Positions 1,430 through 44,135 of a DNA stretch of 44,188 bases are shown one piece after another. Positions within the stretch are counted from its first letter, which is position 1, and each line of letters opens with the position of its first letter. Both the position numbers and the translations under genes were made by a program. Below the pieces are notes generated by a model that was not told the origin of the DNA, ran no database searches, and worked only from the letters and a program-made list of their open reading frames with translations. The stretch comes from a virus, in IMG/VR virus record IMGVR_UViG_3300037293_000267, positions 1-44,188 of that record; one strand, written 5' to 3'.

Positions 1430-2389
1430 ATGAAAGGCGATGTGAATGTAGATGTAAAACCAAGCTCGGTTTCAGTACAAGCAGCTGGTGAGCAAAAAAA
1501 GAAAACATTACAGAAGCTACAAGTTCAAGCAGCTGCCAATAGCACTATGACCCATACGGTCCTTGGTATAGATGTAAAATTTACTTTAAAAGAGATCCCA
1601 GCAAAGCACATTGATAGGGGGACTATGGTTTGGCTTGGTAATGAGCGAAATCAAGATTTGCTAGATGCTTATGCTATTAGTGATTTAATTCCTTCATTTA
1701 AAGAGCAAGGGCAACAAGTGCCAGCGTTCGGCAGAGATATAAGTGGAATTGTTGAAGTGGCAGATGGTAGCCGCAGGCGTTTTGCAGCTCTTGAAACTAT
1801 GCGACCATTTTATGTTTGGGTGGGTGAGCTCAGTAATGAGCAGATGCAATACCTTTCAGAAATAGGCAACCAATACAATCCGACATCGGCCTATGAGAAA
1901 GGCAAGCGCTATGCCGCCATGTTGAATACGTTGACGCAGGAACAAGTAGCCGAAACGGTAAAAGTATCACGTAAAGCAATAATGCGTTGCGTACAAACAG
2001 CAAGCCTACCGATTGAGATCATTAACTGTTTTCAATCACCAAACGAAATAAGCGCAAGACAAGGTGAGTTATTCTTTAAAGGCTACAAATCGCTGAGTGA
2101 AGAGCAGCAGCTGGAGCTGGTGGACTTCTGTGTGAACTGGTTAATACCAGAAAAAGGAACAGGCAAGTACGATAAAGATGGGCTAGTGACATTAATTTCC
2201 AGCAAGATTTTTACTGCCAAACCAAAACAGGAGCAGGTTCAACCTCGAGAGTTGGCTATGGGAGCTTCTGTTGTGGTTAAAGGTGGCAATGCAATAATTA
2301 ACATACCTAAAGTGTCTGAAATATCGCTAAACCAGATAGAACGGGCGATTTCAAGAATACTAGAAGACGAAGCATTAAATAATTTTTAA
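1430..2389 (+). CDS. parB: Centromere-binding protein ParB (SopB-type)
   Basis: This 319-residue ParB/SopB-like DNA-binding protein lies directly downstream of parA. The ATG at 1430 is preferred because GGAGAGG lies 6 bases upstream; a TTG at 1415 would extend it by five residues. The ParB/Srx core is visible (RNQDLLDAYAISDLIPSFKEQ, then VEVADGSRRRFAALE). A helix-turn-helix follows (about residues 170-195, EQVAETVKVSRKAIMRCVQ). No centromere array lies next to the operon. Candidate binding sites are instead the four GCGACC-NN-GGTCGC palindromes scattered elsewhere in the window, as in N15. A terminator closes the operon at 2403-2426. Confidence 0.9.
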   Translation: MKGDVNVDVKPSSVSVQAAGEQKKKTLQKLQVQAAANSTMTHTVLGIDVKFTLKEIPAKHIDRGTMVWLGNERNQDLLDAYAISDLIPSFKEQGQQVPAFGRDISGIVEVADGSRRRFAALETMRPFYVWVGELSNEQMQYLSEIGNQYNPTSAYEKGKRYAAMLNTLTQEQVAETVKVSRKAIMRCVQTASLPIEIINCFQSPNEISARQGELFFKGYKSLSEEQQLELVDFCVNWLIPEKGTGKYDKDGLVTLISSKIFTAKPKQEQVQPRELAMGASVVVKGGNAIINIPKVSEISLNQIERAISRILEDEALNNF

Positions 2390-2402
2390 CCCTTAAATGA
2401 CA

Positions 2403-2426
2403 AAACCCCTGCGCTAACAGGGGTTT
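2403..2426 (+). terminator. Intrinsic terminator after parAB
   Basis: AAACCCCTG and CAGGGGTTT form a 9-bp stem with a CGCTAA loop, 13 bases after the parB stop. The T tract is short (TTTC). Confidence 0.75.
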
Positions 2427-2458
2427 CTAGACACAACCAAAACCGCCAGGAGAAGACT

Positions 2459-2620
2459 ATGTCTGAACACGAGTATAACATCATCCGCAGTAAAAAATTA
2501 ACCGATATTCCTAGCCTGCCAGCTCACTTGGTCATTAAATGGTTAAGTACACAACCAGAATTCATTGGCGAAGCTATCGCCAAGTGCTGCTACCAACAAA
2601 TAGCAGGAGCATCACTATGA
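2459..2620 (+). CDS. Small hypothetical protein
   Basis: A 53-residue ORF (begins MSEHEYNIIRSKKLTDI, ends QQIAGASL) with a strong ribosome site, CCAGGAGAAGACT before ATG. Its stop overlaps the next ORF in an ATGA junction at 2617-2620, which supports both as translated genes. There is no membrane segment or recognisable domain. It opens a small operon leading into the C5 methyltransferase. Function unknown. Confidence 0.6.
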   Translation: MSEHEYNIIRSKKLTDIPSLPAHLVIKWLSTQPEFIGEAIAKCCYQQIAGASL

Positions 2621-2727
2621 TCAATGTCGACAAATTAAAGCAAGAGTTAAAAAAAGGCTTCATAGACTTTTTACTCGCACTGGGCATGTCAGCTTGTGCG
2701 TTAACTCTTTATTCACTTTGGCCTTAA
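2617..2727 (+). CDS. Small single-pass membrane protein
   Basis: A 36-residue ORF overlapping the previous stop by ATGA and preceded by GCAGGAGC. It has a short charged N-terminus (MINVDKLKQELKKG) followed by one hydrophobic helix of about 20 residues (FIDFLLALGMSACALTLYSL). An upstream start at 2539 in the same frame would run through the preceding gene and has no ribosome site, so 2617 is chosen. Function unknown; possibly membrane-associated phage cargo. Confidence 0.55.
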   Translation: MINVDKLKQELKKGFIDFLLALGMSACALTLYSLWP

Positions 2728-2743
2728 TTCTTAGGATGATCAT

Positions 2744-4258
2744 ATGAAGAATAACAACCTGCTTACTGATGTTATAGATGTGTCAATTAATTCTATTGAT
2801 ACGAGAGAAATTATTGTTGATAACTTTGCCGGTGGCGGAGGCGCTAGTACAGGAATGGAATTAGGTTTAAATCGCCACGTAGATATTGCTATTAATCACG
2901 ACCAAGCGGCTATTGATATGCACAAGATGAACCACCCTGAAACCAAGCACTATTGTGAATCAGTATGGGATGTAAACCCAGTTGATGCATGTGAAGGTAG
3001 ACCTGTTGGCCTTGCATGGTTTAGCCCTGACTGTAAACACTTTTCAAGGGCAAAAGGATCTACTCCAGTAAATAATAATATCCGAGGTTTAGCATGGGTG
3101 ACTGTTAGGTGGGCAGCTTTAGTTCCTGTTAGGATTATTATGCTTGAGAATGTAGAAGAGTTTTTAACTTGGGGGCCTGTTGTGAATGGTAAGCCTTGTA
3201 AGGTTCGTCAAGGGGAAACGTTCAAAGGATTTGTTTCCGCTTTAACATCTGGAATGGGGAGGAAAAATCCAGCGTATAAAGATGTTTATAGCGCCCTATT
3301 TCGATGTAATTACGATATTAACGACAAGCTATCTATTTACAAAAAAATAAAGAATGGCCTTGGATATACCGTTGAATGGAAAACATTATCAGCTTGTGAT
3401 TACGGGGCTCCGACTATACGTAAGCGCCTATTTATAGTTGCCAGAAACGACGGAAAGAATATTCAGTGGCCAAGTCCAACACATGGGAAAAATCTAACGC
3501 CCTATAGAACAGCAGCTGACATAATTGATTGGAGTATTCCTGTTAGATCTATTTTTAACCGGAAAAGGCCTTTGGCACCTAATACTATGAAACGGATAGC
3601 CAAAGGGTTAGATAGATTTGTTATCAATTCAAAGGAACCATTCATAGTACCTGGTATGTGTTCTACACCTTTTATTACTGAACACGCAAATTCGAGCAGC
3701 CAGAGGAATATGTCAGCTGATGAACCGCTAAGAACAATTTGCGCCCAAGTTAAAGGGGGCCACTTTGCGGTAGTACAGCCTATTATTCAAAAAGTTGATG
3801 AGATAACACCTACTCACAACACTCTATTCACTAGCTACATGATAAAAATGAGAGGGACTAACATAGGGCATCGCACGAATGAGCCTGTTCATACTATTTC
3901 TGCTGGGGGCTTTCACATTGGAGAAGTGAGGGCTTTTCTTGTCGAATATTACGGAGCCGGTAATGCTCACCGTTTAGATAAACCACTACATACTATAACC
4001 ACTCGAGACAGATTTGGATTAATTACAATTAAAGGTGAAGACTATCAAATTATAGATATAGGGATGAGAATGCTTGAACCACACGAGCTGTTTGCAGCAC
4101 AAGGTTTTCCATCAAACTACTCTATAAGCCATAACTCGAACGGGAAAAAGTTATCAAAAGCAAGCCAAGTAGCTAGATGTGGCAATGCTGTTTGCCCACC
4201 GGTGGCTCAGGCTTTAGTTTCGGCAAATATTTCTGTTCAACGCAGGCTAGCTGCATAG
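2744..4258 (+). CDS. Orphan DNA C5-cytosine methyltransferase
   Basis: This 504-residue protein of the Dcm/C5 methyltransferase family transfers a methyl group from SAM to cytosine C5 in DNA. Visible motifs are motif I DNFAGGGGAS (26-35), motif IV with the catalytic Cys in SPDCKHFS (Cys97), motif VI ENV (135-137), motif VIII RKRLFIVAR (about 226-234) and a C-terminal GNAVCPP (motif X). Motif IV reads PDC where most family members have PPC. The region of about 250-450 is long and probably holds target recognition. No endonuclease gene is adjacent, so it most likely protects phage DNA from host restriction. The ATG at 2744 has weak upstream TTAGGATGAT. Confidence 0.88.
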   Translation: MKNNNLLTDVIDVSINSIDTREIIVDNFAGGGGASTGMELGLNRHVDIAINHDQAAIDMHKMNHPETKHYCESVWDVNPVDACEGRPVGLAWFSPDCKHFSRAKGSTPVNNNIRGLAWVTVRWAALVPVRIIMLENVEEFLTWGPVVNGKPCKVRQGETFKGFVSALTSGMGRKNPAYKDVYSALFRCNYDINDKLSIYKKIKNGLGYTVEWKTLSACDYGAPTIRKRLFIVARNDGKNIQWPSPTHGKNLTPYRTAADIIDWSIPVRSIFNRKRPLAPNTMKRIAKGLDRFVINSKEPFIVPGMCSTPFITEHANSSSQRNMSADEPLRTICAQVKGGHFAVVQPIIQKVDEITPTHNTLFTSYMIKMRGTNIGHRTNEPVHTISAGGFHIGEVRAFLVEYYGAGNAHRLDKPLHTITTRDRFGLITIKGEDYQIIDIGMRMLEPHELFAAQGFPSNYSISHNSNGKKLSKASQVARCGNAVCPPVAQALVSANISVQRRLAA

Positions 4259-4279
4259 TTCAATATTGAGAGGTGTGAA

Positions 4280-4438
4280 ATGGATACAATAATTCTAAGC
4301 GAGATAGTGAAATGCTGGTCTTGCGACTATGTTCAGTCGATAAGAGAAATTAGGCATAATGATGGGGACTGCATTAAGTGCGGGGTTGAAATTGATTTAA
4401 CAGAAAGTCCATACGCAAAAGGCAGCAACGATGAGTGA
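4280..4438 (+). CDS. Small zinc-ribbon protein
   Basis: A 52-residue ORF preceded by GAGAGGTG. It carries two CxxC pairs, CWSC at residues 12-15 and CIKC at 31-34, spaced like a compact zinc ribbon. It overlaps the next ORF by 8 bases and probably belongs to the methyltransferase transcript. Its partner is unknown. Confidence 0.6.
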   Translation: MDTIILSEIVKCWSCDYVQSIREIRHNDGDCIKCGVEIDLTESPYAKGSNDE

Positions 4439-4562
4439 AGATGATGACGCTAAAGAAGAACAGCCAAACTTTCATGATGCCGTAATTAATTTAAAAAACT
4501 TATTAATTAAAGAACTTCGTATCGATAAGTTAGTTGATAAAATAGCTAAGATATTAAATTGA
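4431..4562 (+). CDS. Small acidic hypothetical protein
   Basis: A 43-residue ORF (begins MSEDDDAKEEQPNF) with an acidic N-terminus and an amphipathic helix-forming C-terminal half (ELRIDKLVDKIAKILN). It overlaps the zinc-ribbon ORF and ends 19 bases before a strong bidirectional terminator. Function unknown. Confidence 0.5.
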   Translation: MSEDDDAKEEQPNFHDAVINLKNLLIKELRIDKLVDKIAKILN

Positions 4563-4581
4563 ATAAAAAACTCACCCAAAT

Positions 4582-4609
4582 AAAAAACCGCCACTCAAGG
4601 CGGTTTTTT
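4582..4609. terminator. Bidirectional terminator between convergent operons
   Basis: AAAAAACCGCC and GGCGGTTTTTT pair around an ACTCAA loop, with T tracts on both strands. It separates the rightward methyltransferase operon from the leftward XRE/repeat-protein/membrane-protein operon. Confidence 0.85.
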
Positions 4610-4627
4610 TATTATCCACAACTTATA

Positions 4628-5176
4628 TCAATCAATGTCTTTATACAGATTACGCGCGCCGTTAATTGAAACGGACAGCAACACTAGTAGCATTAGCACA
4701 CTGAGTGCAAACTTTAGCAGTGGAAATGCTGTATAAAAAAACATTGGGTCGAGCGATGTGTGATGCCGAATTAGCCTTTCAATAATAGATGCAAAATTAA
4801 CAAAGATAGAGCATGTAAAAATGATAATTACTGCTACTTCATTCGCTGTTAACTTGTATTTTTCACTTGATTCTCTGGCAAACTTACTAACACCTGGAAT
4901 AGACAAGTCAGCAATAATTCTCGCTGTATTTTGCCTAAACATGATGAGCATTATGATAAAAAAATCAAATACTGAAATAGTAAAGTAATACCCAGTTCCC
5001 CATTGGATGATGCTGCCATAGCAAACAACGTCTAGAGTCTTCATCAGAATTAGTGAAAACATTAACCATCGAATATTCGGTGAACGCCAACTGACGGCGA
5101 ACGCGAATAACATGATGCCCCATGACAACAGATTAAAGTGAACCTGAGAGGCGTGCAATTGTGCCTGGGTTATCAT
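4628..5176 (-). CDS. Multi-pass membrane protein of the repeat-peptide operon
   Basis: A 182-residue integral membrane protein with about five hydrophobic segments: roughly residues 15-30, 34-58, 64-82, 112-132 and 148-170. A soluble loop lies in the middle (about 84-110, with ARESSEKYKLTANE). It resembles no family I can name. Its start lies 5 bases after the stop of the SVSGGIGQPDP repeat gene. No clear Shine-Dalgarno is present, so translation is probably coupled to that gene. A role as transporter, receptor or immunity partner for the repeat protein is inference only. Confidence 0.75.
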   Translation of the reverse strand: MITQAQLHASQVHFNLLSWGIMLFAFAVSWRSPNIRWLMFSLILMKTLDVVCYGSIIQWGTGYYFTISVFDFFIIMLIMFRQNTARIIADLSIPGVSKFARESSEKYKLTANEVAVIIIFTCSIFVNFASIIERLIRHHTSLDPMFFYTAFPLLKFALSVLMLLVLLSVSINGARNLYKDID

Positions 5177-5181
5177 ATGAA

Positions 5182-5472
5182 TTAACGAGGGTCTGGTTGA
5201 CCAATGCCACCACTGACTGACATAGCACTCAATTGGACAGTTGGTCTAGCAATAGCACCTTCTATTGGCTGTTCAAGCATCTTAGGATCAGGCTGTCCTA
5301 TGCCACCACTCACTGAAAGAGTGACAACATCATCTGCCAATTTCACTTCCTTTTGAGAGTTAAGTTCCATTCTTGGATCTGGTTGGCCTATTCCACCGCT
5401 AACTGATAACGCTTTTGGATTGGTATTAACTGTTGTTTGCTGAACTTGTTGACTTACTTTCACTTTCTTCAT
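5182..5472 (-). CDS. Three-repeat SVSGGIGQPDP protein (possible peptide precursor)
   Basis: A 96-residue protein containing three exact copies of SVSGGIGQPDP, each followed by Arg or Lys, at residues 23-34, 53-64 and 85-96. The last copy forms the C-terminus. The linkers are unrelated in sequence, and no signal peptide or membrane segment is visible. At DNA level the copies differ at synonymous positions in most codons while all 11 residues stay the same, which indicates selection on the peptide. The gene starts inside the 3' end of the XRE regulator gene (47-bp overlap) and is followed closely by the membrane protein gene. It could be a precursor of a processed oligopeptide, or a scaffold with three identical docking motifs. 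I do not recognise the family. Confidence 0.8.
   Translation of the reverse strand: MKKVKVSQQVQQTTVNTNPKALSVSGGIGQPDPRMELNSQKEVKLADDVVTLSVSGGIGQPDPKMLEQPIEGAIARPTVQLSAMSVSGGIGQPDPR
5185..5406 (-). repeat. Three in-frame SVSGGIGQPDP[RK] coding repeats
   Basis: The repeat units lie at 5371-5406, 5281-5316 and 5185-5220 on the minus strand. Spacing is 90 and 96 bases. The Val codon is GTT, GTG and GTC in the three copies, and Gly, Pro, Asp, Ile and Gln codons also vary. The final residue is encoded AGA, AAG and CGT, keeping a basic side chain. Confidence 0.9.
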
Positions 5473-5692
5473 CCTTTTCTTCAGTGAGTGTGGTTAATTG
5501 CGGGAACAAATTACTTGTTGATAATCCTACAATCATGCACAAATGTAAAAACTCTGAGAGATTTGGTTCTGATGTACCATCTTCCCAGTTATAAATGGTT
5601 TGCCGACTGCGACCCATCTTGGTCGCTAACTTTGCAACACTTAAACCGCCAGCCAATCTAAGAGAGTTGATGATTTTGAATGTTGGTAACAT
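5426..5692 (-). CDS. XRE-family transcriptional regulator
   Basis: An 88-residue DNA-binding protein. The Cro/CI-type helix-turn-helix spans about residues 8-60 (KLATKMGRSRQTIYNWEDG is the recognition region). It is followed by an acidic, Ser-rich tail (EEKDEESESKS) with no peptidase domain. The ATG at 5692 has AAAGG 5 bases upstream; a TTG at 5716 would add eight residues. It is the first gene of the three-gene leftward operon and probably controls it, perhaps through the inverted repeat at 5754-5771. Its lack of a cleavable domain suggests it is not SOS-controlled. Confidence 0.82.
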   Translation of the reverse strand: MLPTFKIINSLRLAGGLSVAKLATKMGRSRQTIYNWEDGTSEPNLSEFLHLCMIVGLSTSNLFPQLTTLTEEKDEESESKSTSSANNS

Positions 5693-5753
5693 AAAAACCT
5701 TTAAAGCTTTCACCAAGGGTTTGCATACTATTCATGCCAAATATCATTAACAG

Positions 5754-5771
5754 TATCCAGTGTTATGGATA
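5754..5771. promoter_or_regulatory. Inverted repeat upstream of the XRE operon (candidate operator)
   Basis: TATCCA (5754-5759) and TGGATA (5766-5771) form an inverted repeat with a 6-base spacer, 62 bases upstream of the XRE start. It is a reasonable operator for the operon's own regulator. The remaining non-coding sequence, 5693-5999, is AT-rich; I see no other clear element in it. Confidence 0.4.
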
Positions 5772-5999
5772 ACATCATAATGTCCAATTTTTTAGGCATA
5801 TACAGTGATAGCATAACCTGAAATGGATTTCACGGTGGCTAGCAGAGGTATTGTAATCGGTATTGAACCCTATACAAACTCTGAACTAACAATCCTTTTT
5901 GAAACCAAAGCACCCTTGCCTTGCTCGGCTAGATTTTAAACGTCAAGGGTACTGTTGTTTGTGATCAATGAGGCAATAATTAAATGGATATTAACGCAT

Positions 6000-6176
6000 A
6001 TGAATAAACAGGATTTAGACATCATCAACAAGCTTGAACTTTTAGCAGAAGTGTTAGAGCCAGGAACCGTGATTAGCAAAGATATGAGTATTTCTTTTCA
6101 ATACGCGCTAAAAAGAGCCGCAAATGAATTGAAATCGCATAGAGCTAACCGTCCGGCCTTGTCGCATACAGCATAG
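6000..6176 (+). CDS. Small hypothetical protein
   Basis: A 58-residue ORF (begins MNKQDLDIINKLELLAEVLEPG), helix-rich and charged. It is divergent from the XRE operon and convergent with the last tail gene, which it overlaps by 32 bases. A TTG at 5955 would extend it. The ribosome site is poor for either start. The reading frame looks coding (heptad-like leucines), but function and even expression are uncertain. Confidence 0.4.
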   Translation: MNKQDLDIINKLELLAEVLEPGTVISKDMSISFQYALKRAANELKSHRANRPALSHTA

Positions 6177-7164
6177 ACCTTGCCCCACTTTTTGCATTGC
6201 TCGTTGTAATCACCTTGTCAATAGACCAATCTCCCGCCATATAGGCGGGAAATGAGCCATCCAACGTAATAATACCTTCAGCAACCAGATATGGATTAGC
6301 CGGTACATCAAGACGGATTGCATTTGCCGTTCTCCAAGCCTTTCTTAAAACACTTTCGCATTGTTGCTTTGCTAAAAGTTCAGACTCGAATTTTTGAGGT
6401 AATCGCTTAAACGGCGCCTCTCCTACTGAGACTTTAATTTCTTCCCCTGACGCCTGATTTAACCACATGGCCCAAACACCTTTAAATCGGCTTCGACTAG
6501 GGAAATCAATACTCGCGTTGACGAAGTTGCTACTTGTCGGAACGTTATTTTTAGGCAGGCTAAATACGACCGGCGTTAACGTTTTGCCTGAAATAGACTT
6601 AACTTGCCCTCTTCTAGCCATAATATATAAATCATCTACTGGCTTGGCCACAGCATCATATTTACGTGCGATGCGTGTTAAAAATGCCATATCAGTTTCA
6701 TCATTCTGATCAATATGGTCTATGGAAATATTGTCTAAATCAGCAGCTATCCTTGGGCTAAGACCATGCCTATTAACTAACTCCCTGAATATTTTGCCAA
6801 CCGTCGTATTTTCCCACGTCTGACTTCTTCTTAGCTTAAACCCAGTTTGATCAGCAACCTGAAATCGTGCTGCAGTTGCAATGATGGTTACACGGTGAGG
6901 CCATAACGAAGGAGTTATCCGAGTAATGATAAACTTACCTTTATCAACCAAAGCTGGCTGACCATTTACACTTGGTCCCCAAGAGAACCCAATTTGTTCA
7001 TCCTCGTCTGGTAAAGAATCTAAATCAGGAGCAGCTACGGTTATCATCACCTGATCTGTTTGTTCACCAGACACATCAGTATGCTGCCAAGACATTAACA
7101 ACGCATTAATAACAGACGACCCTTTACCTGTAAATCTAGCGTGAAATTCATATGCTAATCCCAT
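6145..7164 (-). CDS. Tail protein gpD (P2-like baseplate hub)
   Basis: This 339-residue protein matches the P2 gpD / late-control D family, which forms the hub that joins the tail tube to the baseplate spike and is related to T4 gp27. Recognisable stretches are FSWGPSVNGQPALVDKGKF near residue 85 and WENTTVGKIFRELVNRHGL near 145. The motif DMAFLTRIARKYDAVAKPVD lies near 188. It is the last gene of the tail operon and overlaps gpX by 10 bases. Length is close to P2 gpD (about 387). Confidence 0.88.
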   Translation of the reverse strand: MGLAYEFHARFTGKGSSVINALLMSWQHTDVSGEQTDQVMITVAAPDLDSLPDEDEQIGFSWGPSVNGQPALVDKGKFIITRITPSLWPHRVTIIATAARFQVADQTGFKLRRSQTWENTTVGKIFRELVNRHGLSPRIAADLDNISIDHIDQNDETDMAFLTRIARKYDAVAKPVDDLYIMARRGQVKSISGKTLTPVVFSLPKNNVPTSSNFVNASIDFPSRSRFKGVWAMWLNQASGEEIKVSVGEAPFKRLPQKFESELLAKQQCESVLRKAWRTANAIRLDVPANPYLVAEGIITLDGSFPAYMAGDWSIDKVITTSNAKSGARSMLYATRPDG

Positions 7165-7766: not shown

Positions 7767-10451
7767 CTATTCACTCCTATCCATTAGTGCGCCATCCATT
7801 CTAATGTCCACACTGTTACCCGCCATAACACCAATAAGATCCGTCTTCATTCGTTCAACCAAGCGATTAACCATTTCTTCATCATTAGCTTTGTTGCCAG
7901 AAGAAGGAGGGATAGTTATCTGAGGACTGAATACGATATGCTTAGTGCTGTTTTGACTAACGCTGCTGGCTAGTTTTTCTGGTGAGGGCAGCTTATCAAC
8001 AACTTCTGGTAGCGAACCTTCGCCATCACTTGAAAATAAATTGCCAATTTTCCCACCAAGAAAACTGCCGAACTCACTTCCGGCCAACCCACCAATCGCA
8101 CCACCGATTAGCGTGCCGATTCCTGGGAATATCGCAGTACCAAGAGCAGCGCCTGCAGCTGCACCACCTAAACCACCGACCATATCACCTGCAGTGGTAC
8201 CGATCTCTTTTGAGTCGCTATTACCAATGGCTGATGTTAATGCAGCTCCTTGCATAACGATGTTAAGAGGTCGAACAACTTTACCTAACATGCCTGCGCC
8301 GGTAGCCAGAGCGCCCTTTAATGGCAAGCTGCTGATAGTATCACCAGCCATGCTAACCGCATCAGCTCCGGCCATAGCGAGATCTGAAGCATTGGCGCTA
8401 GTCGCTAACATTGATAGCGCGGTACCGCCACCAAAGATGGCAGCGCGCTTACCCCATTTACCGCCTTTGCGCTTCGAACCCGCCACAGGTGAAGCGTCAT
8501 TTGACCCAAACGGTAAATAATCGAGCGCGCTGCTACCAAGGCTCATTAAGCGGCCAAGCTTACCGCCTCGAGCTCGAGCGCGACCACGTTTTCTGGTGGT
8601 ATTTCGGCCACCAAAACTTGAGTTACCTCGCCCCATCCGATCCATAGCACGTGATAAGCCATTTAATCGTGATGTGGCGCGAGATGCTGACGCTGATGTA
8701 GCATCTAGAGTGCCGCCCATTTTAGCGCGGCCTAGACTCGCATAGTTCTTACCTTGCCCTAGCAGTAACTTCCCGGCTTTAAATGCTATAACAGCAGTCT
8801 TTATCGCCAAGAAAGCAGCAGGTACCGCCATCAGTGCGGCGGTCATACCCGGTGCTTCAGAAGCTAATGACGTAAGCGTTTGCACTGCAGGTGTCACTAT
8901 ATCAAGCACTGCGCCAACGTAAGGCAGCACGCTATCACCAACAACAGTAAATAAACCTGTCATCGATGCGGTGAAAGCTGATATTTTTCTCTGCGCGGTT
9001 GCGGCTTGAATATCGAACTCTTTTTGCATTGAGCCTGTAAAATTAGTGTCTTTTTCGATGAGCTTGAATGCCTTTCGAAAGTTATCTAAATTTTGCAGTA
9101 ATGGGGCAATTGAACCGATTGATTCAGAACCAAACAAACTCTTCATTAATGCCGTTTGTTCAGACTGATCTTGATCCTTTATCGACATTAAGACCTGTTC
9201 TACGGTCTTAGGCGCATTTTCTTGCATATCCCGCGCAAGTTGAACTGGGTCAAAACCTAGCGATTCCAAGGCACTTTTCTGGCCACCACTAGCGGCATCA
9301 CCTGCTGTTAATCCTAATAACAGGTTTTTTGTCGCGGTAGCACCCATCTCTGTATTTGCAGAGCCTGACAATACTGCAGCAGACAATGAAGCGGCTTGAA
9401 CTTCATCAAGACCAGCACTGGTTATTACCGCCCCTTGTCTGACTAAAACCTCAGTAATGGCTTTAGCATTGGTTGCCATGTTGTCACCAACATAGTTGAC
9501 AGCATCGGCAAGACGAACAGCCTGCTTTTGACTCAGGTTCATCGTCGTGCGCCACTTCATCATAGAAGCGCCGGCTTCGTCTGCAGTCATATCAAATGCA
9601 ACAGACATTTTTGCGGCAGAGCCAGCAAAATCAAACAATTCATCTTTCTTAATGCCGTTTCGACCACCTTCGGCAATGATCCCAGCTAAGCCTTCTTGAT
9701 TAATACCCAAGCGTGGAGCTTCGGTAATAATTCTTTTCCTCATGACTTCAAGCTCATCTTCGCTTGCGTCGTTAACGGCTTTTTTTACATCAGCAAATGC
9801 CGCTTGATAATCAACAGCAAATTTGATTGGTACAGCCAAAGCTGCGCCTTGTAGTGCGGTTTCAACAGCTTTCCCACCTAGTTCTGAGCGAGCATTACGA
9901 TTGGCTTCTATACGGCTTTGAGCTTGCTTTACTTTTGCAAGTTTTTTAGCTTGCATGTCCAGTGCAGTATTAGCACTTGTAATGCTACTTTTAAGCTGTC
10001 TTTGAGCTTCGCCTAATTTGTGAGTCTGAATGCCAGAATCACTTAAAGTCCCTTTTAATTTATGTAACTTAAGCTGTTGCTTTTCATAAGAGCTGCTGAG
10101 TTTATTGACCTCCGCTCGACTGCGTTCGTAAGCAGTTTTTGCTTCTAGAACCGACGTTTTCATCGCCTTGGTAGGCTTCTCTGTCGCAGTAAGTTGAGCT
10201 TGTAACTGTTTATGCTCAACCGCCAACGCCGCTGTTTTAGCTTTGGCTTGCGACATTTGAATCGTCGAATCATTGAGCTCATGCTTTAAAGAACGATAAG
10301 CATCAACATGGCCGGCGGTAGCATTAAGTTGTTTTAATTCCTGCTTCTGTTTTTTTACACCTTCCGTGAAAAGTTCAGAAGCAGTTGCAGCAGATTTGAA
10401 CGGCGCTGAATACTGATCCAGTGCCGATATAGCGATTTGATACTTATTCAT
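7767..10451 (-). CDS. Tail tape measure protein
   Basis: This 894-residue protein sets tail length and is ejected with the DNA. A long coiled coil occupies about residues 30-200. A TP901-type tape-measure core follows (about 200-480), with AVDYQAAFADVKKAVN and later INQEGLAGIIAEGGRNG. Hydrophobic segments lie near 540-600. An Arg-rich stretch (TTRKRGRARARGGKLGR) comes before a Gly/Ala-rich C-terminal membrane-like region. Its ATG overlaps the stop of the frameshifted chaperone extension by ATGA (10448-10451), the usual arrangement in long-tailed phages. Confidence 0.93.
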   Translation of the reverse strand: MNKYQIAISALDQYSAPFKSAATASELFTEGVKKQKQELKQLNATAGHVDAYRSLKHELNDSTIQMSQAKAKTAALAVEHKQLQAQLTATEKPTKAMKTSVLEAKTAYERSRAEVNKLSSSYEKQQLKLHKLKGTLSDSGIQTHKLGEAQRQLKSSITSANTALDMQAKKLAKVKQAQSRIEANRNARSELGGKAVETALQGAALAVPIKFAVDYQAAFADVKKAVNDASEDELEVMRKRIITEAPRLGINQEGLAGIIAEGGRNGIKKDELFDFAGSAAKMSVAFDMTADEAGASMMKWRTTMNLSQKQAVRLADAVNYVGDNMATNAKAITEVLVRQGAVITSAGLDEVQAASLSAAVLSGSANTEMGATATKNLLLGLTAGDAASGGQKSALESLGFDPVQLARDMQENAPKTVEQVLMSIKDQDQSEQTALMKSLFGSESIGSIAPLLQNLDNFRKAFKLIEKDTNFTGSMQKEFDIQAATAQRKISAFTASMTGLFTVVGDSVLPYVGAVLDIVTPAVQTLTSLASEAPGMTAALMAVPAAFLAIKTAVIAFKAGKLLLGQGKNYASLGRAKMGGTLDATSASASRATSRLNGLSRAMDRMGRGNSSFGGRNTTRKRGRARARGGKLGRLMSLGSSALDYLPFGSNDASPVAGSKRKGGKWGKRAAIFGGGTALSMLATSANASDLAMAGADAVSMAGDTISSLPLKGALATGAGMLGKVVRPLNIVMQGAALTSAIGNSDSKEIGTTAGDMVGGLGGAAAGAALGTAIFPGIGTLIGGAIGGLAGSEFGSFLGGKIGNLFSSDGEGSLPEVVDKLPSPEKLASSVSQNSTKHIVFSPQITIPPSSGNKANDEEMVNRLVERMKTDLIGVMAGNSVDIRMDGALMDRSE

Positions 10452-36523: not shown

Positions 36524-37177
36524 ATGCAACTACATCACTTACTAAAGACTGAGCGCAACAGGCTCGGCATAACTCAAACTGACGCTGCTCACGCTATGAG
36601 TAGCTGGAAAATTGACGTCTCTACATCAACGGTTTCCAGAATAGAATCTGGATGGCCACCGTCTTGGGATGTTGTTAATGGATACTGCCGTCTTTTTGGA
36701 TGGAGCCTATCTGATCTCGAAAAACGGTTACTCGGTGATGTACCTGAACAAGAGCAACCATTACTAACTAAAGTGGGTAGTTATGTTGCTATTGCGAACT
36801 GGTCTAATCCAGAGGGGTGGTCTACTCAATCAATAAACACAACTAACAACCACAATAAAATATTCATAACGGGGAAAGTCCCCAAGAATACATTTGCACT
36901 GTATGTCAGTGGCGACTCTATGATGAATAGTGATGCAAGGGAAACATTCCCCAGTGGATGCCTGATATTAGTGGACCCGGGCCAAATACCTAAAAACAGG
37001 GATTTTGTGGTCGCAATAGACAGCAAAGCCAACGATGCAACATTTAAAGAGTTGATTGAAGACTGCGGAAAGATGTACCTTAAACCTCTAAATACTCAAT
37101 ACCAGGTAAGAGAACTGACTGAGTCAACTACCATCGTTGGTGTTGTCTTTAGAAAAATTGAAGATAAAATAATCTAA
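36524..37177 (+). CDS. cI: CI-type prophage repressor (XRE + S24 peptidase)
   Basis: A 217-residue repressor with an N-terminal HTH (TQTDAAHAMSSWKIDVSTST, then VSRIESGWPPS) and a C-terminal S24/LexA-like domain. Catalytic Ser132 is in YVSGDSMM, and Lys175 in DATFKEL. The linker (about 72-125) lacks an Ala-Gly or Cys-Gly cleavage pair typical of RecA-induced cleavage. AAGGAG lies 11 bases before the ATG. It should keep the early operon and possibly repA under control through the CCCATAYRKGAAAA boxes. Confidence 0.88.
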   Translation: MQLHHLLKTERNRLGITQTDAAHAMSSWKIDVSTSTVSRIESGWPPSWDVVNGYCRLFGWSLSDLEKRLLGDVPEQEQPLLTKVGSYVAIANWSNPEGWSTQSINTTNNHNKIFITGKVPKNTFALYVSGDSMMNSDARETFPSGCLILVDPGQIPKNRDFVVAIDSKANDATFKELIEDCGKMYLKPLNTQYQVRELTESTTIVGVVFRKIEDKII

Positions 37178-42077: not shown

Positions 42078-44135
42078 TTATCGTTGCCAGTATTTAGAAT
42101 AGTTCTCCTGGTAACTGGTTATAGCATCGTGAACATAATCCAATCTACTACCGGGGCCAGACACTTCACAAACAATTGTACCCCTGTGTTTTATTACCGC
42201 AGTCCACCAGCCATCTTTTTTTAATGTAAGTACAGTTGGCGTTTTAGGTAAGCTGCAGCAAAACTGGTATTCATCCCATGCAATCCTCATTGCCTCCATC
42301 GAGTTTTTTGCATCGACAGTAAAGTCATAATCAATATCATGATGATTAATTATTACGTACCAATATCCAGTATCTAATTGTTTAGGAATAGTGAACTTTG
42401 GCTTACTAGGATGGGTCTCGTTGTTTTCTTCATGGATTACTTCAGCTTCAACTTCAACCTCCGTTTCTACCTGCGGCTTCTTAGATTCACTGACTTTTGC
42501 TTTTTTCTTTTCAGTGGAAATAACTTCTTTATGCAAAATACTATCAAGTGTTGTATCAAAGCTTAAAGCCTCTTCTACAATGGCTAGGTATTTTCTAATG
42601 GTTTCATAGTTGCCACCAAAATTTCCCTTAATAGCTCGTTGAGTTATTTTTATATCTGGATCTTGCTGTATCAAAGATTTGACGTTGTCGTGCATTCTGG
42701 CCAGCGCTTTTGAATCAGCAATATCAGCATGAGCATCGAATTTTTTAAGCTCGCCAAGTCTATCTTTTGCCTCAGCAACTATGCTTTCCCACTTATCCCC
42801 AGGTCGCAATATTTTAAATTGTTTATAGTGGGCCTGCGCTTTAGGATCAGAATGGCCAAGCAGAGTTTGAAAGAACATATCCTGGTCCATTTTAGCCCAG
42901 CGCTTATCTGTATCGAAAAATAGCTTGAAGCAGATAGCGGCATAAATAGCGCGAGTATCTTTGAATACCCATTGTCGATTTGGAATACCAGTATACATAT
43001 CGGCATCTTTCATCATCGCACGCATAAAGTCGTTTAAGTATGCCGCCGTTCTGTTATGTACCAACTCGTTGAATTGATAGTGGCGACCACTATTTAATTC
43101 AGAGATCATTGATTCTATTTTGGGGTATGCACGTAGGGTGTCAATTGCAGCTAATACGGTATCGGCTTTTATTAAGCTATAAATTTCAAAAGAGTTTTCG
43201 TGGTCAACTCCGCCACGTTCTTTTGCTTGACCTGAAAAAGTTAGCTTATAAGTTCCAGCTTTTTTAAATTCGCCTTGAACCAGTACCTCAATAGCGCGTC
43301 TACCAGTAGCCAACGCGATACCAGTAGCTAAAGCTTCCCAGCTCCAAACCTCAGCATTAATTGGCGAAAGCAAAAACTCACATCGAGACATTATTGTTGG
43401 GTAATCTATGTCTATCGTATGGCCTTTTTTGGTGGCCAATGCGAAGGCACTTGTTTCTGACGATACAGCAGAAGAGAAAGAATCCTTTACTAACCAGCGC
43501 ATAATCTCGTGGTCTATTTTTAAACCTTCTAGTTCCTTAAATAAATTTTCACCATCGTCAAAAACCTCAAATAAGGCCATTACTTTTTGGCCCCGGTCAT
43601 CTTTATTGACAGGTTTTAAGTTTTGTATTTCTGCTTGCCAAGGTTCAAATGACTTTGCTATCTCGTTTATTTTTGATGCATAACGCGGGTCGTTTACATC
43701 TACAGCTGCTAGTGCTTTCTTAAGCCTGTTAATTTGCAGCAGTTTGTCTTTTAATGCTTTAACCCCTAGTCGTGTATTATCTAGAGTTTGATTTTCTAGT
43801 GCTTCAATCAAATGCTGGCACCGAGGGTACTTGCCCACTAATCGCTCCAAGGTGGCTGGTAACGAATGGTGAAGCCAACCTTTAGCCGTAACTTGATTGC
43901 GAATTTTCGTCAGATATTTGCTGGCAGTATTATGTGCAATAGCATTGCTTTTGTTCTTTGCACGCTGCCCATACAGCGCCCTAGTCACTTTATCAGCTTC
44001 ACGCCGGAACGACTGGGTCTTCTGCCCTTGAGTTTTATCACTCGCGTCAATCTCACTAATACCTTTAAACATTTTATCAATAATGTCATCTAGGTCTATT
44101 TTTCGACTTCTTTTATCTATATCGCTGCTGTTCAT
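42078..44135 (-). CDS. telN: Protelomerase (telomere resolvase)
   Basis: A 685-residue protelomerase of the TelN/TelK family, which cuts the replicated telomere palindrome and rejoins the strands as covalently closed hairpins. Catalytic residues can be placed: Arg279 or 280 (ATGRRAIEV), Lys305 (GQAKERGG), Lys392 and Arg395 (FKDTRAIYAA), His428 (LGHSDP) and nucleophile Tyr437 (AQAHYKQF). Their spacing is close to that of TelK (R275, K300, K380, R383, H416, Y425). The C-terminal 140 residues include a charged linker (KVSESKKPQVETEVEVEAEV) and a separate small domain. TCAGGAG precedes the ATG. Only 53 bases remain to the window edge, where the target telomere site is expected. Confidence 0.95.
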   Translation of the reverse strand: MNSSDIDKRSRKIDLDDIIDKMFKGISEIDASDKTQGQKTQSFRREADKVTRALYGQRAKNKSNAIAHNTASKYLTKIRNQVTAKGWLHHSLPATLERLVGKYPRCQHLIEALENQTLDNTRLGVKALKDKLLQINRLKKALAAVDVNDPRYASKINEIAKSFEPWQAEIQNLKPVNKDDRGQKVMALFEVFDDGENLFKELEGLKIDHEIMRWLVKDSFSSAVSSETSAFALATKKGHTIDIDYPTIMSRCEFLLSPINAEVWSWEALATGIALATGRRAIEVLVQGEFKKAGTYKLTFSGQAKERGGVDHENSFEIYSLIKADTVLAAIDTLRAYPKIESMISELNSGRHYQFNELVHNRTAAYLNDFMRAMMKDADMYTGIPNRQWVFKDTRAIYAAICFKLFFDTDKRWAKMDQDMFFQTLLGHSDPKAQAHYKQFKILRPGDKWESIVAEAKDRLGELKKFDAHADIADSKALARMHDNVKSLIQQDPDIKITQRAIKGNFGGNYETIRKYLAIVEEALSFDTTLDSILHKEVISTEKKKAKVSESKKPQVETEVEVEAEVIHEENNETHPSKPKFTIPKQLDTGYWYVIINHHDIDYDFTVDAKNSMEAMRIAWDEYQFCCSLPKTPTVLTLKKDGWWTAVIKHRGTIVCEVSGPGSRLDYVHDAITSYQENYSKYWQR

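Follow-up and report, generated by a model that had tools for sequence, protein, structure and literature searches.

An operon of regulator, repeat peptide and membrane protein that may let a linear phage-plasmid sense a peptide signal

The window (the whole 44,188-nucleotide stretch of DNA analysed here, an IMG/VR virus record) carries a three-gene operon that may let the virus, apparently one of marine bacteria, sense a peptide signal. Its products are an XRE-family regulator, a small protein containing the motif SVSGGIGQPDP three times, and a membrane protein. The best reading, and a tentative one, is that this is a peptide-sensing regulator feeding the lysis switch of a nearby small open reading frame (smORF), and thus the sensory half of a lysis-lysogeny module. 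Peptide signalling is well established in Gram-positive bacteria and their phages; to our knowledge, it is scarcely known in Gram-negative bacteria and phages.

The features of the window to which the argument refers are:
ending at 2389: ParB-like gene
2744-4258: cytosine methyltransferase, which shares its cargo slot with the three-gene operon
~4582..4610: terminator-like hairpin, bidirectional, AAAAAACCGCC-ACTCAA-GGCGGTTTTTTT
4628..5176, minus strand: five-helix membrane protein, 182 aa
5182..5472, minus strand: repeat-peptide protein, 96 aa, three SVSGGIGQPDP copies
5371..5406, minus strand: repeat copy 1, SVSGGIGQPDPR
5281..5316, minus strand: repeat copy 2, SVSGGIGQPDPK
5185..5220, minus strand: repeat copy 3, SVSGGIGQPDPR, C-terminal
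5426..5692, minus strand: XRE-family (HTH_3) DNA-binding protein, 88 aa from ATG 5692
5693..5999: intergenic region between the divergent XRE gene and smORF, 307 nt
6000..6176, plus strand: smORF, 58 aa, candidate lysis-trigger small protein, divergent from the XRE gene
from 6145: P2-like tail operon
36524..37177, plus strand: probable cI repressor with a LexA/UmuD-like (S24) domain, the proposed final target
42078-44135: protelomerase, 685 aa, 69% identical to the Valp1 protelomerase

The virus record has a P2-like tail operon and a protelomerase gene as well as ParA-like and ParB-like genes. The nearest relatives of its protelomerase come from Vibrio linear phages (e.g., Valp1 and K242; 69-70% identity). 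These features make the window a linear phage-plasmid that is related to Vibrio phages. Besides the operon, the interval from the ParB-like gene to the tail holds two small ORFs and the cytosine methyltransferase gene. This parAB-to-tail position is syntenic with Valp1, and syntenic Vibrio phages carry different cargo in the same slot, which bears out a sequence-only reading of this DNA that had described the operon as variable cargo beside the tail genes, comparable with VqmA/Qtip of VP882. Toxin-antitoxin and defence readings were dropped, since a PADLOC scan matched only generic HTH and methyltransferase models.

The three ORFs all lie on the minus strand and run in the same direction, from the XRE gene through the repeat-protein gene to the membrane-protein gene. 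The first two share a 47-nt overlap and the third begins 5 nt past the second, so that the overlapping, abutting operon proposed earlier is confirmed by the ORF coordinates. (The bidirectional terminator proposed along with it fared less evenly: the hairpin at ~4582-4610 is readable on both strands, but is absent from the output of a consensus terminator scan.) The regulator exceeds the Pfam cut-offs for HTH_3 and HTH_31; an alternative start, TTG 5716, yields a 96-aa form that scores 29.9 bits for HTH_3 against a cut-off of 23. The membrane protein is modelled by AlphaFold2 as a confident five-helix bundle (pLDDT 93.3, pTM 0.86). Neither it nor the repeat protein matches a Pfam, NCBIfam or PHROG family, and comparison of the membrane-protein fold with PDB and BFVD gave nothing at E < 0.001. 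VIA-align Z scores reach at most 9.3, to unrelated helical bundles, which is background for helical models and no proof of a new fold. Charged and polar positions R36, Y64, R81, E113 and E133 of the membrane protein are near-invariant.

The three SVSGGIGQPDP copies are identical in amino acid sequence; the next residue is R, K and R in turn, and the third copy closes the protein. No fewer than 11 base changes distinguish the copies, every one of them synonymous (p ~4e-7, assuming random changes, of which ~26% in the repeat codons would be synonymous). All of these changes being silent, the sequence of the repeat peptide is under selection, as the sequence-only reading had already argued from the synonymous drift. 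The protein is predicted to be disordered (pLDDT 49). It has neither a Sec signal nor a canonical double-glycine leader: where such leaders have hydrophobic residues at -4, -7 and -12 before GG, the phage repeats have V at -4 only, and A, T and A at -7. A C39 exporter is not encoded anywhere in the window. With canonical leader, Sec signal and C39 exporter all lacking in the window, export of the phage peptide is plausible at best.

The same trio occurs in the same order in a P2-like phage of IMG/VR (L001), with 67% identity to the window in the XRE protein, 56% in the repeat protein and 58% in the membrane protein. Here the motifs are SVGGGIGQPDP, SVGGGIGQPDP and SVGGGIGQPAP, and the residues after them N, N and L. 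In a second P2-like phage (L005), the genes for XRE and the membrane protein flank one whose product contains LSVGGGIARPKP just once. Copy number (1-3 per phage protein) and the residue following the motif therefore vary, while GG and P-x-P are kept; only in the window does the 11-mer have this exact form and an R/K ending. The sequence-only reading had each motif end in Arg or Lys, which holds for the window and fails in L001. It had also named, as what would count against a functional unit, homologues that lose the motif or genes that are never found together. Neither was found, even if the exact 11-mer goes no further than the window: the conserved three-gene unit that it proposed has the same order in three phages and recurs in a large chromosomal family.

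The trios of L001 and L005 each follow a portal gene and a zinc-finger gene. The module is a moron found in two unrelated phage contexts. In both P2-like phages, a small ORF diverges from the XRE gene at a distance of 158 nt (L001 2003-2140, L005 3657-3842). These two ORFs are homologous to each other (E 3e-10) and are possible smORF partners; they have no evident similarity to the smORF of the window. A relative of the window's methyltransferase also adjoins the trio in L001 (3634-4938). Search of 50,697 phage and 72,556 plasmid records with the repeat protein (tblastn) gave no relatives; the membrane protein gave none in the phages of these collections and one match in the plasmid records, which led to Pseudoalteromonas piscicida. 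An XRE profile search returned mostly unrelated XRE loci.

The bulk of the family is chromosomal. About 90 relatives of the membrane protein are carried by 32 of 108 Pseudoalteromonas species genomes. The Pseudoalteromonas search gave at most seven matches per genome; with a deeper profile, one genome gave eight. Outside this genus such proteins are rare (five carriers among 397 genomes sampled from the taxonomic family, and a further one among 395 from the order). An XRE gene of its own lies just upstream of 73 of the 91 distinct membrane proteins (three of the 91 being phage-borne), and most of those that have none are in tandem arrays. The distances of XRE and membrane proteins correlate (r = 0.79, permutation p 0.001, 42 non-redundant pairs). 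Constant across the family are the XRE gene, this membrane protein and, mostly, a small peptide with GG and P motifs. This peptide / five-helix / XRE family is large, mostly confined to Pseudoalteromonas and apparently undescribed; a search of open-licence literature found no description of it. (The loci L095 and L096-L162 are Pseudoalteromonas examples in which XRE, five-helix and double-glycine genes combine, often several per genome and some in tandem.)

The main chromosomal clade has no match in viral contigs or phage records. Its gene order is XRE, membrane protein and then one to five short peptides, for example MKTLSEHLLKQIKGG followed by THSRSPDLPARQQ..., and MKKAIDKAELKKVSGG followed by IGGGNESPGLTR..., both with the double-glycine leader pattern. 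Leader and core together are found in 63 of 504 downstream ORFs on the coding strand vs 10 of 472 on the opposite strand. Most chromosomal peptides combine this leader with a short, hydrophilic, Pro-rich core (GG...SPDLPxR), and distant relatives of the window motif keep only GG...P-x-P. In 29 sampled cores the median length is 24 aa (some have 11-12), GRAVY is -0.88, net character is neutral and proline makes up 18%. One peptide of the main clade resembles the EntF induction-factor leader at E 0.003, below cut-off. The trio persists in other genera with a different type of peptide: two carriers outside Pseudoalteromonas have peptides with an apparent Sec signal, one of which ends in two SSGGTKGDP copies, and another such carrier has the canonical leader ...LDLNELEVVSGG. 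(The Sec-type small proteins are at L176 2203-2442 and L178 2092-2235, reverse complement, with SSGGTKGDP twice and AFA followed by TGGKKEPPQ.) All 32 carrier Pseudoalteromonas genomes encode a strong C39-peptidase exporter, vs 33 of the 76 others (Fisher 2e-9, uncorrected for relatedness). In the Pseudoalteromonas locus L198, the C39 exporter stands together with HlyD-like and LanC-like genes (2231-7048), and a peptide, MKIIENKELLSLVSGGIDEGGCILFPPHGLK, is encoded at 8963-9058, ~2 kb from the exporter locus.

Loci of this kind could also belong to a bacteriocin-like module, in which the exported peptide would be antibacterial or serve lysogen fitness, the five-helix protein would confer immunity and XRE would exert control. 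This is the main rival of peptide sensing, and an unlikely one. Double-glycine leaders, one to five peptides per membrane protein and up to seven loci per genome do resemble class II loci, and the LanC-like gene beside the C39 exporter of one carrier genome points the same way. On the other hand, cores that are short, hydrophilic, neutral and Pro-rich are unlike membrane-active peptides, and conservation of R36, Y64, R81, E113 and E133 would seem to exceed what passive immunity needs.

The same chromosomal leaders bear on a second alternative, that the peptide never leaves the cell and serves there as a multivalent linear-motif ligand of the membrane protein or of XRE, the trio sensing the state of the membrane or envelope. 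A phage protein that lacks the canonical leader, is predicted to be disordered and repeats a motif under strong purifying selection is what such a ligand might look like. The chromosomal and other-genus relatives, however, mostly bear double-glycine or Sec-type export signals, and we judge purely intracellular action decidedly unlikely.

The phage proteins form a clade (support 0.95) nested in a wider clade (0.92) with P. piscicida-type modules, which also have the XRE-peptide-membrane order of the phages. (One P. piscicida module, L084 7355-8700, lies immediately upstream of a VgrG-like gene and has an additional peptide, MILLPNDIAKKITGAAGGGVTSPDLPERKE.) This affinity, together with the fact that VP882-type phages read host signals (PMC10432266, PMC12802170), is compatible with eavesdropping: the phage would read a host peptide of the same family, its own repeat protein serving as decoy or tuner. 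Retention by the phage of a peptide gene under purifying selection argues against this, as does the Vibrio phage kinship of the window's protelomerase, and eavesdropping appears improbable. Superinfection exclusion or another surface function, with the membrane protein altering the envelope or blocking entry, XRE as a local repressor and the smORF unrelated, would suit the small membrane protein that the phage carries in a slot of variable cargo, but is just as improbable, the main family being chromosomal and retaining both peptide and XRE genes, and PADLOC matching neither the peptide nor the membrane protein. Among the functions that the sequence-only reading had offered, signalling would fit best and peptide export seems plausible, as far as sequence comparison can tell.

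What would tie peptide sensing to lysis is the divergent smORF at 6000-6176, which the sequence-only reading overlooked and which is the strongest clue to a lysis role for the module. It is homologous to smORFs of HY01, Val-yong3, Valp1 (BLASTP 6e-12) and further IMG/VR phages. Seven of the eight relatives examined occupy the parB-tail slot and diverge from an XRE gene with a product ~111 aa long, to which the XRE protein of the window is only distantly similar. The eighth (L211, metagenome fragment 3300018411_001215) adjoins a tail gene and has no XRE gene evident alongside, the slot holding different cargo. In the intergenic region of the window, nested palindromes at 5754-5774 (TATCCAGTGTTATGGATA, TGTTATGGATAACA) constitute a weak candidate operator. 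Palindromes with six-base arms number 3 in this region vs 1.5 in shuffles, which is not significant, and no operator stands out; a TTAGAC motif upstream of XRE genes is at chance level (11 of 81 vs 9 expected).

The cI candidate scores 2.8e-8 as UmuD-like and 3e-4 as LexA, both below cut-off. It is 41% identical to the HY01 repressor; relatedness to the cI of Valp1 is undetectable. Homologous smORFs accordingly stand alongside unrelated cI repressors in window and HY01 vs Valp1 (window 36524-37177, L203 10094-10717), so that co-variation gives a shared anti-cI action no support.

Peptide sensing coupled to the smORF lysis switch might work as follows. The operon would have been acquired from the chromosomal peptide / five-helix / XRE family that is commonest in Pseudoalteromonas. 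A short Gly-Pro peptide, exported and processed, would be released or displayed as the signal and detected by the five-helix membrane protein, whose state would be relayed to the co-transcribed XRE regulator. XRE would in turn control the intergenic region and so determine how strongly its own operon and the divergent smORF are expressed. The 58-aa protein would inactivate cI, with lysis ensuing at high signal and hence at high lysogen density. A wider proposal is more doubtful: that the family as a whole represents a new Gram-negative peptide communication, widespread in Pseudoalteromonas, in which a hitherto unknown five-helix, non-kinase membrane receptor would sense secreted GG-PDLP-type peptides and act on XRE, and that temperate phages have captured it as an arbitrium-like input to the smORF switch. 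If true, a receptor family that has no relative in Pfam, NCBIfam or PDB, at ~7 copies per Pseudoalteromonas genome at most, would constitute a signalling route, and the phage copy would supply a lysis switch with a peptide signal of the phage's own making; the published density-answering modules of Gram-negative linear phages read small host molecules.

No family described in the open-licence papers or libraries searched matches the sensor operon; its slot and its smORF are of a published kind. In par-associated TF-smORF modules, a regulator activates a counter-oriented smORF (smORF63 has 183 nt), whose product inactivates cI and brings about lysis; in a published variant, an xre-luxR operon near par answers autoinducer and the counter-oriented smORF provides quorum-triggered lysis, such XRE-LuxR-smORF modules being known from Apop and ARM81ld (PMC10432266). 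The window shares with these modules a linear protelomerase phage, the parAB-tail slot, an XRE-type regulator and a counter-oriented smORF of ~180 nt with homologues in other linear Vibrio phages; likeness to smORF63 rests on position, orientation and length. It differs in having an XRE-peptide-membrane operon in place of a TF63-like or XRE-LuxR regulator and a spacing of 307 nt between XRE and smORF. A compound screen yielded no inducer for TF63-smORF63 (PMC10432266), and the module described here would be a candidate for the missing input of such par-associated TF-smORF modules. Open-licence literature on TF-smORF modules returned only the known papers.

Like VqmA-Qtip of VP882, the window combines a regulator with a small protein as cargo of a linear phage-plasmid with vibrio-like hosts; unlike VqmA-Qtip, it has no PAS receptor, has a peptide and a five-helix protein, and carries its module elsewhere in the genome (vqmA-qtip is located in the repA-telN region; PMC10432266). 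A phage-encoded short peptide adjoining a DNA-binding regulator is shared with arbitrium (AimR-AimP) and other RRNPP systems, which differ in their TPR receptor; here the regulator has 88 aa, the membrane protein is the likely detector and the hosts are Gram-negative. RRNPP membership was rejected, given a regulator of this size with HTH matches only and no HTH-TPR receptor in the operon. To double-glycine pheromone and class II bacteriocin loci (EntF, ComC/Blp) the likeness lies in the leaders of the chromosomal relatives, the multiple peptides per locus and the C39 exporters. The differences are that a five-helix protein and XRE are present where no histidine kinase or response regulator is seen, that the bacteria are Gram-negative, and that the cores are short, Pro-rich and hydrophilic.
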